NCBI GenBank assembly: GCA_030041415.1
Contig: JASHNX010000038.1
Coordinates: forward strand, 1-32,182
DNA: 32,182 nt
Reading direction: 5' to 3'
From: Candidatus Sulfotelmatobacter sp.
Lineage (GTDB): Bacteria > Acidobacteriota > Terriglobia > Terriglobales > Acidobacteriaceae
Shown here in pieces: positions 10,063 to 17,151 of this stretch. Every line of letters begins with the position of its first letter. The stretch's first letter is position 1. The notes beneath the pieces are model-generated. The model had not been told where the DNA came from, did no database searches, and saw only the letters and a program-made list of their open reading frames with translations. The translations under genes and the position numbers were made by a program.

Positions 10063-11133
10063 TTAGCTATTACTTCCTTTTCTCACTATATCCACCACGC
10101 GCTCGTAATCGTCGATGCTGCCGTATTCGATTACAATCGAGCCATGGCCTTTCTGGTCCTTGATCCTTACGCGCACGCCCAATAACTTTTGCATCTCTTC
10201 CTGTGCAGCCAGCACATTCGGATCAACCCATCGCGCGCCTCCCGATTGCGCAGTCGGCCCGGGGACTACAGGCAATCCGTTCAACTTCGCGATTCGTTCT
10301 TTGAGGCCGCCCCAGTTCAATCCGCCGCGCAGAAGATCTTCCGCGACCTGAGAGACATGCGCCGGATTCTCAAGCGACAGCAGTTCTCTTGCTTCGCTGA
10401 AGCCGATTCGCCCGAGCGCGACGTATTCGCGCAGCTCCGCCGGCAGCCGCAGCAGCCGCATGTAGTTCGCCACTGACTCACGCGACACGCCAATCCGCTG
10501 CGCAATCTGGGCTTGCGTTAGGTTGAACTCCTGGCTCAGCACGCGGTAAGCTTCTGCTTGCTCGATCGGATTCAAATCCTCCCGCACCACATTTTCGAGG
10601 ACAGTCATCTCCGCCGCCTGCTGTGGCGACAACCGACGTACTATCGCCGGAATCGTTTCCTTGCCCGCCATCCTCGAAGCGCGCAGGCGCCGCTCGCCGA
10701 GGACCAGGATGTAACGCCCGTTCTCTGCAGCCGGACGCACCACCACTGGCTGAACGACTCCATGCTCTTGTATCGAGTCCCTTAACTCAATCATTTCTTG
10801 CTCGTTGAAGGCCGCACGCGTCTGATAAGGGTTTTTCTCAATGAGGTCGATCGCCAAGTTCAAAATTACGTCGCGAGTTTCTGCATGGGCGACCTTAGTG
10901 TCTTCGGCAACCGTCATGATCGTCTCGGCAGTAGTCGCCGGAGCATCAGTGGCAGTCTCTATTGCCGGAACGCCTGCTCGGGCAGCTTGAGTGACGCTGC
11001 TGCTCGACGCGACGACCCGCGGACCCGGAAGCAACGAATCGAGCCCGCGGCCTAGAGCTCGCCTTTTTTCTGGCTTTTCTTCTTTCTTCTCTGGTGCTGC
11101 TGTCGTCAAGTTCTGCATGGCTGCCGTGGTCAT
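10063..11133 (-). CDS. parB: ParB chromosome-partitioning protein (CTPase)
   Basis: ParB binds parS, loads as a CTP-dependent sliding clamp and recruits ParA and SMC. The start at ATG 11131-11133 follows GAGGA at 7-8 nt and gives 356 residues; the open frame continues upstream but would overlap parA. Visible parts are the ParA-stimulating peptide KRRALGRGLDSLLP (23-36), a 45-residue Ala/Thr/Val linker, NPYQTRAAFN (101-110), the CTP-binding motif GERRLRASRMAG (146-157), ENVVREDLNPIEQAEAY (180-196), and the helix-turn-helix LTQAQIAQRIGVSRESVANYMRLL. The C-terminal dimerisation segment ends in GSIVIEYGSIDDYERVV. It lies 55 bp downstream of parA in one operon. Confidence 0.96.
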   Translation of the reverse strand: MTTAAMQNLTTAAPEKKEEKPEKRRALGRGLDSLLPGPRVVASSSSVTQAARAGVPAIETATDAPATTAETIMTVAEDTKVAHAETRDVILNLAIDLIEKNPYQTRAAFNEQEMIELRDSIQEHGVVQPVVVRPAAENGRYILVLGERRLRASRMAGKETIPAIVRRLSPQQAAEMTVLENVVREDLNPIEQAEAYRVLSQEFNLTQAQIAQRIGVSRESVANYMRLLRLPAELREYVALGRIGFSEARELLSLENPAHVSQVAEDLLRGGLNWGGLKERIAKLNGLPVVPGPTAQSGGARWVDPNVLAAQEEMQKLLGVRVRIKDQKGHGSIVIEYGSIDDYERVVDIVRKGSNS

Positions 11134-11188: not shown

Positions 11189-11989
11189 TCACGCGCTGAT
11201 CGCTGAAGTTGCCTGTTCGGCCGCAGCCAAATGTCTGCCGATAATCTCTTTCGCCAGACGGATATAGCTCTCTGCACCCTTCGACCGCGGATCGTAAGCC
11301 AGAGCCGGTTTGCCATGGCTTGGCGCTTCGGCGAGTCGTATGTTCCGCGGAATGCTCGCCGCGCAGAGCTTTTCCCCAAAGAATCTCTTCAACTCCGCAA
11401 TCACCTGCTGCGCTAGGTTGGTACGCTCGTCGAGCATGGTCAGCACGACACCTTCAAGCTCCAACCCTGGATTCAGCGCAGCTCGAATCCGTCCAATCGT
11501 GTCGAGCAGTTCGCTGATTCCTTCTAGCGCAAAGTATTCCGCCTGCATGGGTATCAAAACCGAGTCGGAAGCCACCAGCGCATTCAGCGTCAGCAAATCG
11601 AGCGCGGGCGGACAATCGAGCACGATGTATTGAAATCGATCGCGCAAACTGGAGAGCGCATCCAAGAGCCGAAACTCGCGGCGGTCGGCGGTGACCAATT
11701 CAATGTTGGCCCCGATCAAATTCTTGTGCGAAGGAATGAGCCATAACTGTTCAAGTTCGGTCGCAAGGAGCGATTCCTCCGCTCCGGCAGCTCCCATCAG
11801 CAAGTGGTAGATCGAAATCCGCTCTGCATCTTTGGCAACGCCGAGGCCGCTCGAGGCATTCGCCTGAGGATCGACGTCGATGAGCAGAGTGTTGACTTCT
11901 GCGGCGGCAAATGAAGCGGCAAGATTGATCGCGGTCGTAGTTTTCCCTACGCCGCCCTTCTGGTTGGCAATAGCAATAACGCGTCCCAT
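11189..11989 (-). CDS. parA: ParA chromosome-partitioning ATPase
   Basis: ParA binds DNA nonspecifically when ATP-bound and moves ParB-parS complexes. The 266-residue protein starts MGRVIAIANQKGGVGKTTTA, with the deviant Walker A KGGVGKTT (11-18). LLIDVDPQANASSGLG and YIVLDCPPALDLLTLNAL (Walker B region) follow, then IPMQAEYFALEGISELL. The frame is open for another 64 codons upstream to 12181, but that part runs through palindromes and resembles no family member, so ATG 11989 is used. No clear Shine-Dalgarno precedes it. Two parS-like palindromes lie 106-170 bp upstream. It is encoded between rsmG and parB. Confidence 0.96.
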   Translation of the reverse strand: MGRVIAIANQKGGVGKTTTAINLAASFAAAEVNTLLIDVDPQANASSGLGVAKDAERISIYHLLMGAAGAEESLLATELEQLWLIPSHKNLIGANIELVTADRREFRLLDALSSLRDRFQYIVLDCPPALDLLTLNALVASDSVLIPMQAEYFALEGISELLDTIGRIRAALNPGLELEGVVLTMLDERTNLAQQVIAELKRFFGEKLCAASIPRNIRLAEAPSHGKPALAYDPRSKGAESYIRLAKEIIGRHLAAAEQATSAISA

Positions 11990-12094
11990 AGATTTTTGGG
12001 GAATCGAGAGCCTAAGCAGAATAATGCGGTCAAGATTTCGATTGCAATGACGAACCGCTGTGAACATTCGGAATTTGTGTGCAAAACAGGTTCG

Positions 12095-12114
12095 AATGTT
12101 CCAACTGGAACATT
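12095..12114. promoter_or_regulatory. parS-like palindrome, site 1
   Basis: AATGTTCCAACTGGAACATT has perfect 9-bp arms around a central AC. Its 16-bp core (12097-12112) matches canonical parS TGTTTCACGTGAAACA at 12 of 16 positions, and the changes are symmetric. It lies about 105 bp upstream of parA. Function as a ParB site is inferred. Confidence 0.6.
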
Positions 12115-12155
12115 GGTTGTGCCTGGAGTCGACGGCCCGGCGTACGTTAAGAACG

Positions 12156-12175
12156 AATGTTCCAGTTGGAACAAT
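12156..12175. promoter_or_regulatory. parS-like palindrome, site 2
   Basis: The core TGTTCCAGTTGGAACA (12158-12173) is the exact reverse complement of the site 1 core, and both sites are preceded by CGAA on the plus strand. The centres are 61 bp apart, close to six helical turns. A CAATT-ATC-AATTG repeat abuts it (12172-12184). Confidence 0.6.
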
Positions 12176-12340
12176 TATCAATTGTAAGAGTTGGCTAATG
12201 CTTCAATATAGAAATCCATTCCTGTCATACAGGGATAGAAACCGGCGCACATCTTCCACTTTTACGACGAATGAGTGAACCTTTTGAGTTTGCAGCTGTC
12301 GAAAAACTCTAATGAACGAGATCTACTTCCCACTTGTTAA

Positions 12341-13012
12341 CTATCGTGGTTCCTTAGTTCCAATCAGCAGAAGACGCGAGTCAGACATCGGAATCGGACT
12401 CGGATCAAGCCAGCGAAAATAGGTAAGCGTCGATTTCGCCAATCCAACCTGGGACGATGAGATCAACAATGCTAGGCGCCCTCGGGGCCGAACCAAGTTT
12501 GCCGCTATCAACAGTGTGTCGCTAAATCGTTCGACGGCTCGCAGCGTGGCAATATCGAATGATGCTGCCGTCGCCTTTTCGGCTCGAGCATTCTCGACAT
12601 TCACATCCGACAATCGCAAAGCTCGGGAGACTTCGCGAAGAAACACCGCTTTCTTCTGGTTCGATTCGAAGAGAGTAAGGGAGATTTCCCGCGCCCACAG
12701 TTTGATCGGAGTTCCAGGAAAGCCGGCTCCGGATCCCACGTCGGCCAGGCTGATCTGATGAGCCGAATCCGCCGAGCGCTTGGCTTGAGATCGCTCTGGA
12801 AACAAATGCCGTGCCGCGAAGAAAGACTCCCCAAAGTGCCGCGTCACGATTTGCGCGTGATCGCGGACAGCGGTCAAGTTAATGCGCGCGTTCCACCGCA
12901 GGAGTAGATCGATGTACGTCGATATATCTGCTAGATCGTTGTCGCCGAGCCTCTGCCCGTCAGGATCTCCGAAGAATGGCGTCAGTAGCTCGGCAATGCG
13001 CGCGGTGTTCAT
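12341..13012 (-). CDS. rsmG: 16S rRNA (guanine-527-N7)-methyltransferase
   Basis: RsmG (GidB) methylates G527 of 16S rRNA; its loss causes low-level streptomycin resistance in many bacteria. From the ATG at 13010-13012 it has 223 residues. Visible motifs are LLLRWNARINLTAVRD, then HFGESFF, the S-adenosylmethionine-binding loop ADVGSGAGFPGTPIKLW, the acidic FESNQKKAVFLREVSRALRL, and RAVERF near the C-terminal half. An ATG at 13051 would add 13 residues; 13012 is preferred because it gives the usual distance to the core and keeps the promoter of the divergent regulator free. Its place next to parA and parB is the classical gene order. Confidence 0.93.
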   Translation of the reverse strand: MNTARIAELLTPFFGDPDGQRLGDNDLADISTYIDLLLRWNARINLTAVRDHAQIVTRHFGESFFAARHLFPERSQAKRSADSAHQISLADVGSGAGFPGTPIKLWAREISLTLFESNQKKAVFLREVSRALRLSDVNVENARAEKATAASFDIATLRAVERFSDTLLIAANLVRPRGRLALLISSSQVGLAKSTLTYFRWLDPSPIPMSDSRLLLIGTKEPR

Positions 13013-15411: not shown

Positions 15412-17151
15412 ATGACCCTCCCGTCCTCGTTCCGACCCCACCGAGCGCATTTCACCGCGCTGGCTCTGGTTTGCTTTGCTGGAGTTGCGGCTCCCGCGCG
15501 GGCCCAGTTTGAGACGCGAGCCAGAACTGCGTTTCCTCAGGGGGCGTTCAGCATGGCGCTTGGCGATTTCAACAACGACGGGATTCTCGATGTCGTCATG
15601 ACAACGGGCAACGGCTTTTCTGTAGCTCTCGGCAACGGGGACGGCACCTTTCAGCCGCCGGTTACGACCCGAACACAGCTCTCCTACTCGCTTGCGGTTG
15701 CCGACTTCAACAACGACGGCAATCTGGACATCGTGGTGGCCAATGAAAATGGGAGCCCCAGCACAGTGAGCGTGTACTTGGGGAATGGGGACGGGACCTT
15801 TCAGCCGCCGATCAACTCGGATACCACCGACTACAACGAGTTTGTTGCTGTCGGCGATTTTAACAATGACGGAAAGATGGACATTGTGGTCATCGAAAAT
15901 CCCTACATCAGCGTGCTGCTGGGCAACGGCGACGGGACCTTTCAGCCGCCGAGCAACAACGATTCGTTTGTCGGCGCACACTGGCTGGCGGTTGCCGATT
16001 TCAACAACGATCGCAACCTTGATGTCGTCGTGACTGGATACTTCGGCACGGGGGACAGCATTGGTGTGCTGTTGGGAAACGGCAACGGGACGCTGCAGGA
16101 TTCCATCACGCAGGACATCGAATACGTGCCCGCCACGGTGGCTGCCGGTGACCTGAACGGTGACGGCAAGATGGACGCAGTTTTGGGCTACGACCTTGGT
16201 GGCGTTGCTGTCTTTCTCGGAAACGGGGACGGGACTCTTCACCCGCCGGTGAACTACGACACCACAGGGATTGGGAACGGAAAGGTCGTCGTCAGCGATC
16301 TAAATCTAGATGGCAAGCTAGATGTGGCAGTCCCCAGCGCTGGTCTAGGCTCGGCGGAGGGCTTCGACGTCCTCTGGGGAAATGGAGATGGCACCTTGCA
16401 GGCCGCGCAGTTTTTCTCGGTTGGCGACTACACTGGGCTCCCGGCCGTGGGCGACTTAAATGCGGATGGTCTGCCGGACCTCGTTTTTGGGACCGATGTC
16501 GGCGTAGTGTCAGCGCTGAATACCGGGGTGGTGAGCTTTTCGCCTAGCACTGCCCCCCTGACCTTTCCCGTCCAGGTGATTGATACCACCAGTGCGAAAC
16601 AAACGGTGAATCTGACGAACAGCGGGTCGAAACCGCTCTCGATTAGTTCGGTGAGTGTATCAGGCGAGTTTCAGATGAGCACGACCTGCCGCAAGTCGCT
16701 GGCCAGTGGGGCGGATTGCGCAATTAATGCCTTGTTCAAGCCCACAAGCGCAGGCAGCCTCTCTGGATTGATCACGATTGTCGACAGCGCGTCATCGAAG
16801 CCGCAGTTTATTGAGCTGTCGGGCACCGCAACAGTTGTGAAGGTCTCGCCCAGCAGCCTGAACTTTGGCGACCAGAAGGTCGGGACGAAAAGCAAACCGC
16901 AGATTGTAACTGCAAAGAACGTGGGAAGCGTGGGGATCACGTTTAGTAGTGTTGGGGTGACTGCGCGGCAAACGGACTTTTCTTCAACTGATAACTGCAC
17001 GGGGCGCACAATCGAACCCGGCGCCAGTTGCGAGGTTTCGGTTGTCTTCGATCCAACAGAAACGGGCGCGCGCAGCGCGGATCTCTACTTCAACCTGCCG
17101 AAGGGCTCGATCGGGCCCGCGCCCGTGGCGCTTTGGGGCACCGGCAACTAA
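15412..17151 (+). CDS. Secreted seven-repeat FG-GAP/VCBS propeller with C-terminal Hydin-like domains
   Basis: This is a 579-residue secreted protein. A signal peptide covers about 1-32 (ALALVCFAGVAAPARA, cleavage before QFETR). Seven FG-GAP/VCBS repeats follow, each with a calcium loop such as GDFNNDGILDVV, ADFNNDGNLDIV, GDLNGDGKMDAV or GDLNADGLPDLV, alternating with LGNGDGTFQPP-type turns. Seven repeats should make one closed beta-propeller (about 35-375). The C-terminal 200 residues contain two immunoglobulin-like ASPM-SPD2-Hydin units (VNLTNSGSKPLSISSVSVSGEF; KVSPSSLNFGDQKVGTKS) with paired cysteines. No catalytic site or sortase signal is seen. It is probably a surface or periplasmic binding protein. 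GGAG lies 6 nt before the ATG. Confidence 0.88.
   Translation: MTLPSSFRPHRAHFTALALVCFAGVAAPARAQFETRARTAFPQGAFSMALGDFNNDGILDVVMTTGNGFSVALGNGDGTFQPPVTTRTQLSYSLAVADFNNDGNLDIVVANENGSPSTVSVYLGNGDGTFQPPINSDTTDYNEFVAVGDFNNDGKMDIVVIENPYISVLLGNGDGTFQPPSNNDSFVGAHWLAVADFNNDRNLDVVVTGYFGTGDSIGVLLGNGNGTLQDSITQDIEYVPATVAAGDLNGDGKMDAVLGYDLGGVAVFLGNGDGTLHPPVNYDTTGIGNGKVVVSDLNLDGKLDVAVPSAGLGSAEGFDVLWGNGDGTLQAAQFFSVGDYTGLPAVGDLNADGLPDLVFGTDVGVVSALNTGVVSFSPSTAPLTFPVQVIDTTSAKQTVNLTNSGSKPLSISSVSVSGEFQMSTTCRKSLASGADCAINALFKPTSAGSLSGLITIVDSASSKPQFIELSGTATVVKVSPSSLNFGDQKVGTKSKPQIVTAKNVGSVGITFSSVGVTARQTDFSSTDNCTGRTIEPGASCEVSVVFDPTETGARSADLYFNLPKGSIGPAPVALWGTGN
15641..15960 (+). repeat. Near-identical coding repeats in the propeller gene
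   Basis: The segment encoding NGDGTFQPP recurs almost unchanged at about 15637, 15785 and 15925 (each GGGGACGG or GGCGACGG followed by (C/A)CCTTTCAGCCGCCG), with weaker copies later in the gene. The spacing follows the propeller blades. Conservation at DNA level suggests recent duplication or gene conversion between blades. Confidence 0.7.

Follow-up and report, generated by a model that had tools for sequence, protein, structure and literature searches.

In published accounts the parS site of chromosomal partition systems is highly conserved and marks such systems faithfully (PMC7022226, PMC5450999). Among its known forms is TGTTCCACGTGGAACA, tabulated for Pseudomonas and, with a final G, for Myxococcus (PMC7022226). 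When the canonical chromosomal parS of Burkholderia c1 was scanned, every change abolished binding in vitro except those at positions 1/16 and 5/12 (PMC5450999). On the protein side, the report of Jalal et al. places K171 and R204 (Caulobacter numbering, used throughout unless stated) among the parS contacts common to ParB and Noc, assigns to residue 201 the reading of parS position 6 in Noc-type variants and gives R173 and G201 as absolutely conserved in ParB (PMC7383237). The selection data given there allow S, C or T at residue 201 for parS-specific binding, alanine not being named, and K at residue 184 is called permissive (PMC7383237).

The locus analysed here lies in a window of 32,182 nucleotides (the whole stretch of DNA that was analysed) from Candidatus Sulfotelmatobacter sp., in which two palindromes stand in front of parA. 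These are very probably the chromosomal parS of this Sulfotelmatobacter-type bacterium, in a centre-degenerate form read by the neighbouring ParB. No description of the parS of this lineage was found in the open-licence literature, as judged by titles and the starts of abstracts.

Two palindromes between rsmG and parA

The gap between rsmG and parA holds two perfect 16-bp palindromes of the form TGTTCCA-NN-TGGAACA with AC or GT in the middle: site 1, TGTTCCAACTGGAACA, at 12097-12112, which is parA-proximal and lies at -108 to -123 from the parA start codon, and site 2, TGTTCCAGTTGGAACA, at 12158-12173, both listed without a strand. They start 61 bp apart and show no mismatch, as had originally been predicted, and their 4-bp centres are AACT and AGTT. 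CGAA directly precedes both on the + strand, also as predicted, but is no fixed flank, since of 176 flanks taken from dispersed sites of five relatives, 139 have AA or AG directly before the site. A chance origin was rejected: TGTTCCN4GGAACA occurs twice in the window and in 0 of 100 dinucleotide shuffles of it, and a reversed control pattern gave no match in the genome.

The product of parA (11189-11989, minus strand) is a Walker ATPase of 266 aa (Pfam AAA_31, 1.8e-60), and its gene directly adjoins parB (10063-11118, minus strand), as in chromosomal ParABS. ParB, of 351 aa, has the regular chromosomal architecture of ParB_N, HTH_ParB and ParB_C (N-terminal domain 2e-27, HTH 7.2e-27, C-terminal dimerisation domain 8.9e-9, all Pfam), closely resembles solved Spo0J/ParB structures (best E 6.9e-42) and is the one ParB-type match in the window genome. 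It contains the stretches GERRLRA and LENVVRE, which we take to be CTP-binding motifs. Upstream of the sites lies rsmG (gidB; 12341-13012, minus strand; Pfam GidB, 6e-35). Between site 2 and rsmG (12250-12340), AAGTGGNA-type motifs are found that recur in this region of several genus sequences, and further along the window, at 15412-17151, a protein with FG-GAP repeats and HYDIN/ASH-like Ig domains is encoded.

Throughout the assembly of the window genome (4.8 Mb, 350 contigs, 95.56% complete), TGTTCCANNTGGAACA at up to one mismatch matches sites 1 and 2 only, and the reversed control pattern matches nowhere. Canonical parS, whose presence elsewhere in the same genome the original prediction had set against a centromere, was found at up to one mismatch nowhere in the whole assembly. 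At up to two mismatches, TGTTYCACGTGRAACA is found at seven places, namely sites 1 and 2 and five others, all with exactly two mismatches.

Relative to TGTTTCACGTGAAACA the window sites differ at four positions, 5/12 and 8/9, which agrees with the four symmetric differences first noticed; however, two of the four are ordinary parS variation, given that TGTTCCACGTGGAACA is already known as a parS form, and only the central two bases are unusual. Set against the Burkholderia c1 scan, the variation of the lineage thus falls on central positions at which a canonical ParB accepted no change, and its T5C is a change of the tolerated kind. The abolition of binding by central changes for the canonical Burkholderia c1 ParB in vitro (PMC5450999) weighs against the parS reading.

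The parA-side position in relatives and the loss of the ACGT centre

Candidatus Sulfotelmatobacter and other Terriglobia MAGs supply the named relatives of the window ParB, and parB regions were taken from 40 of the 48 relatives with a ParB match (G002, G009, G042, G046, G047, G048, G050 and G054 were left out). Counting the window, 26 same-genus ParB regions were compared: 24 have at least one TGTTCC-N4-GGAACA site upstream of parA, with rsmG next upstream on the same strand, and of the remaining two, G018 has three sites just past the first stretch read and G019 lies on a truncated contig. In G018 (L065) parA and parB are about 4 kb apart, unlike in the other same-genus loci examined. Sites with an ACGT centre stand upstream of parA in 14 of 15 genomes of sister families or of the wider class (G051 has none there), and rsmG is next upstream in 12 of these 15 regions, two of the other three being short. 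Given ACGT sites and rsmG at the equivalent place in the sister groups, the window sites occupy the place of canonical parS.

When 72 named ParBs, the window ParB and 10 outgroups were aligned and placed on a tree, the degenerate-centre genomes formed a clade of 31 ParB rows including the window, with support of 100/100, composed of 29 degenerate, one mixed and one truncated and nested among relatives with ACGT sites. A TGTTYC-N4-GRAACA site lies upstream of parA in 29 of the 30 named clade genomes, the exception (L188) being a truncated contig, and these 29 genomes hold 100 intact-arm sites, one of them with ACGT (L199). Read towards parA, the clade sites show 42 different centres. Among the other relatives, 34 of 40 genomes have such sites and ACGT is found in 64 of 79; as the count took only sites with both outer arms intact, arm changes are invisible in it, and an earlier count was looser. 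In the six other genomes with no counted site, the sequence in front of parA is short or missing (L200, L232, L234, L236) or the arms are altered (L203, L225), and L235 and L238, two of the 72 named loci in which parB has no adjoining parA, are in neither group. Mapped on the tree, the degenerate label has to change four times, with L195 and L216 degenerate outside the clade and L199 carrying an ACGT site inside it. Many of the named loci L167-L190 come from the same assemblies as the G-numbered relatives, so the same-genus and clade counts are not independent.

Within the clade the normally fixed parS centre has thus given way to a variable, species-specific one, with the outer arms kept. The window sites accordingly descend from parS by such a replacement of the fixed core, because the change of centre is clade-wide and ACGT sites stand at the same place in sister families. 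The divergence specific to the lineage, which the original prediction had proposed, holds across the clade; the 4-bp centre is, however, degenerate throughout it rather than one new AC/GT centre. The ParB encoded beside parA would load on TGTTCC-N4-GGAACA, presumably still reading the outer bases of each arm, and the complex would then work with ParA, and presumably SMC, in segregation of the origin. A lineage-specific centromere for the ParB next door, as first proposed, is supported at the level of sequence by the place of the sites, by their being the sole copies, by the clade-wide change of centre and by the matching centres of dispersed sites in relatives.

An alignment of the region upstream of parA (23 regions, the window and 22 relatives) shows a conserved order of blocks: proximal site, two CACA repeats, a promoter-like pair TTG...TAT.CT and the parA start codon. 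In the window the inferred parA promoter has its -35, TTGCAA, at 12042-12047 (TTG invariant in the alignment) and its -10, TATTCT, at 12018-12023 (TAT.CT invariant), both on the minus strand and separated by an 18-bp spacer. The direct repeat TTTTGCACA...CACAGC (12059-12086, minus strand), of invariant or near-invariant columns, lies between site 1 and this promoter, and CACA-type direct repeats of the same kind are found at orthologous places in relatives. The mirror half-site that had been noticed facing site 1, GAACATTCG at 12062-12070 on the + strand, does exist and overlaps a conserved CACA repeat, but it occurs at that position in 1 of 23 aligned regions, the window's own, and the block it lies in carries a CACARC stretch in 18 of 22 relatives; as a third site it was rejected for want of conservation.

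This arrangement bears on the possibility that the sites are operators of parA transcription, bound by ParB, ParA or another factor, and not a centromere. A TGTTYC-N4-GRAACA site is held at -117 to -130 from the parA start, next to the conserved promoter block, in 24 of the 30 named clade relatives (the window being outside the 30), as would suit an operator. This reading is nevertheless very unlikely for several reasons: first, with the -35 at 12042-12047, a gap of about 50 bp lies between it and site 1 further upstream, so that neither site overlaps or abuts the core promoter as a classical repressor site would. Second, further sites in the relatives extend past -600 from parA. Third, ACGT parS occupies the parA-side place in the sister groups, and fourth, the intergenic site clusters found elsewhere in relatives are biased to the 3' ends of genes, as given below. 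The operator alternative raised in the original prediction is therefore the weaker one, both sites lying upstream of the conserved parA promoter, and repression of parA by ParB spreading is possible as a second role of the sites.

In genomes of the TGCA/TTAA type (L066, L067, L070, L072, L074, L075), TTTTCCACAG directly abuts a site upstream of parA; we take this stretch to be DnaA-box-like.

Dispersed copies in the genomes of relatives

Across 37 genomes of the genus, 318 TGTTCCN4GGAACA sites were found, parA-side sites included, against four matches of the reversed control. At least five sites are present in 21 of the 37 genomes and none in three, the highest number being 51 in G030, and the window genome has two, both on the parA side. 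Random scatter of the motif, which the original prediction had set against a centromere, was thus seen in part, with up to 51 copies in some relatives, but those examined lie almost exclusively between genes, and their centre follows the local one. Dozens of genome-wide copies in some relatives, many in interspersed repeats, are unlike an origin-restricted parS and weigh against the parS reading.

The pairing of dispersed with parA-side centres was examined in 11 genomes, with 45 of the 46 dispersed G030 sites included and the parA-side sites of G071, G076, G085, G087 and G093 recognised by spacing; G023 (partial site list), G026 (no parB), G065 (four sites, three of them ACGT) and genomes with few or unlisted sites were left out. 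For the six non-ACGT genomes the true pairing was the best of 720, and G025 alone has dispersed centres that fit the parA-side sites of G030 better than its own. Most dispersed sites of the five ACGT-type relatives match TGTTCCACGTGGAACA exactly. From species to species the centre thus differs, but it is coherent within most genomes tested.

A crude gene caller gave the gene context of 62 clusters, two of them at edges, at 60 loci from five genomes. Only 2 of the 62 fall inside called genes, though about 69% of the sequence was called coding, and 38 of 58 intergenic clusters have a gene 3' end as the nearest, against 40% of background positions. A promoter-operator regulon was rejected for the dispersed sites on account of this bias. 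Copies that are centre-matched, intergenic and biased to 3' ends speak for a common reader of the dispersed and parA-side sites, which would then not be promoter operators.

Repeated intergenic stretches harbour many of the dispersed sites, which there often form pairs spaced 24-36 bp. One interspersed element, about 186 bp long, has the palindrome at its beginning and includes AAGTTGTTGATTC, GTCTACTAAAGTAGAC and a promoter-like TTGACA...TATAAG sequence, its parts varying by copy (G013 L127, L130-L134, L136 and L140; G030 L108, L120, L143 and L146; G025 L166; G035 L162), and no consistent downstream gene was apparent among the ORFs inspected, nor did the copies searched match any Rfam family. 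In G030, which has 28 clusters among the 50 places listed, palindrome pairs or triplets mostly 26 bp start to start occur at L109, L112, L116, L122, L123 and L126, with GTACRTAC-type palindromes nearby. Known RNA families were rejected as an account of the repeats, Rfam giving a tRNA and a group I intron only over 11 loci and the window; a group I intron match lies near one dispersed site of G018 (L153:2730-2931). GC skew in 20 sampled 20-kb stretches of the G018 contig C4 gave no placement of origin or terminus.

The repeats raise the possibility that some unrelated DNA-binding protein is the reader of the palindrome, or that it is part of an interspersed repeat family of which a member also came to lie near parA. 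The sites of G030, G013, G018 and G035 in repeated intergenic stretches, such as the element of about 186 bp with a site at its end, would agree with this, as would the numbers of up to 51 copies per genome. Such an origin is nonetheless highly improbable, given that the window assembly holds the two parA-side copies only, that sister groups have ACGT parS at the parA-side position, that dispersed copies in the five ACGT-type relatives are mostly of the exact parS form and that 29 of 30 clade genomes retain intact-arm sites upstream of parA. The dispersed copies may also be considered compatible with parS: in many-copy relatives, ParB could use them in a second, Noc-like role in chromosome organisation or the guidance of division. 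The genome-wide, nearly all intergenic, centre-matched copies would suit such a role, which is unlikely and does not apply to the window genome with its two copies. A doubtful, if conceivable, extension is that ParB has lost its fixed readout of the centre, that the core, freed by this, drifts by species and that in many species the site has since multiplied to tens of intergenic copies, making the segregation protein a genome-wide, Noc-like organiser of the chromosome with a self-consistent, species-specific address code.

ParB residues at the interface and comparison with known systems

Returning to the sites as parS read by the neighbouring ParB, the residues at the interface were compared. 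Q162, G170, R173 and N178 are kept in 72/72 named relatives, whereas K171 is kept in 0/72 and G201 in 0/71 with a residue there; residue 201 is S in 61, A in 8, D in one and T in one, and residue 204 is R in 58 and K in 13. All 15 outgroups keep G201 and 14 of them K171, and G053, the outgroup with no K171, has canonical parS. Position 6 of the site belongs to the degenerate positions in this lineage. Loss of K171 and G201 was rejected as the cause of the loss of the centre: the replacement is just as full in relatives keeping ACGT (the named Terriglobia ParB loci L191-L238, most with ACGT parS), so that, extending beyond the clade, it is probably the earlier event and can at most have allowed the centre to be lost afterwards. 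Residue 184 is K or R in 28/28 clade members compared and in 15/15 near relatives with ACGT or mixed sites, and residue 179 is Y in the clade members compared. More columns of the DNA-binding domain change on the branch to the degenerate clade, for example 203, 230, 248 and 268 in window-ParB numbering. The 11 clade genomes with K204 have mainly T at the first centre base, as have L177 and L189 with R204; this pattern tracks one subclade and is therefore no independent evidence. None of the residues compared appears to explain the loss of the centre.

The tree suggests an ordered series in which K171 and G201 were replaced in a wide group with parS unchanged, ACGT was then lost in one clade and species-specific centres followed. 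With such a series, naturally occurring ParB-parS pairs would be available to test how an essential interface between protein and DNA can shift while segregation stays intact, and searches with an ACGT consensus will miss the centromeres of this lineage.

Among known systems, the many sites recall half-parS binding in Pseudomonas aeruginosa, where many ParB contacts lie outside oriC; there, however, single arms GTTCCAC or GTTTCAC are bound (PMC10419367), and here full palindromes form the putative ParB sites, with 2 of 62 clusters inside called genes. Noc and its NBS (TATTTCCCGGGAAATA) of Firmicutes are alike in that a ParB relative has a changed residue 201 and in that sites are spread over the genome in some relatives. 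Noc, in contrast, has Q173 and R201, with permissive K179/K184 (PMC7383237), whereas R173 is found here in 72/72 and residue 201 is never R, being S or A in 69/71 named relatives; furthermore, NBS changes site position 1, and the window sites keep the G of position 1. The parS families of Burkholderiales secondary replicons (Bsr) are likewise diverged 16-bp palindromes, read by diverged ParBs, but they keep the central CG and lie on secondary chromosomes or plasmids (PMC5450999), whereas here the central CG is lost and the ParB is the only one found in the genome. With the parS of chromosomal ParABS, TGTTNCACGTGAAACA and TGTTCCACGTGGAACA (Bacillus, Caulobacter, Pseudomonas, Myxococcus), the window sites share a 16-bp palindrome, several copies beside parAB and standard ParA and ParB domains, the outer arms being those of Pseudomonas and Myxococcus parS. 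They differ in a variable, species-specific N4 centre, in a ParB with neither K171 nor G201 and in the many genome-wide copies of some relatives. In summary, the sites would not be plain chromosomal parS but a variant of it, since the outer arms TGTTYC/GRAACA, the 16-bp palindrome, the several copies, the domains of ParB with parA beside its gene and the position shared with canonical parS of relatives are all present and only the central ACGT, which is part of the consensus, is absent.
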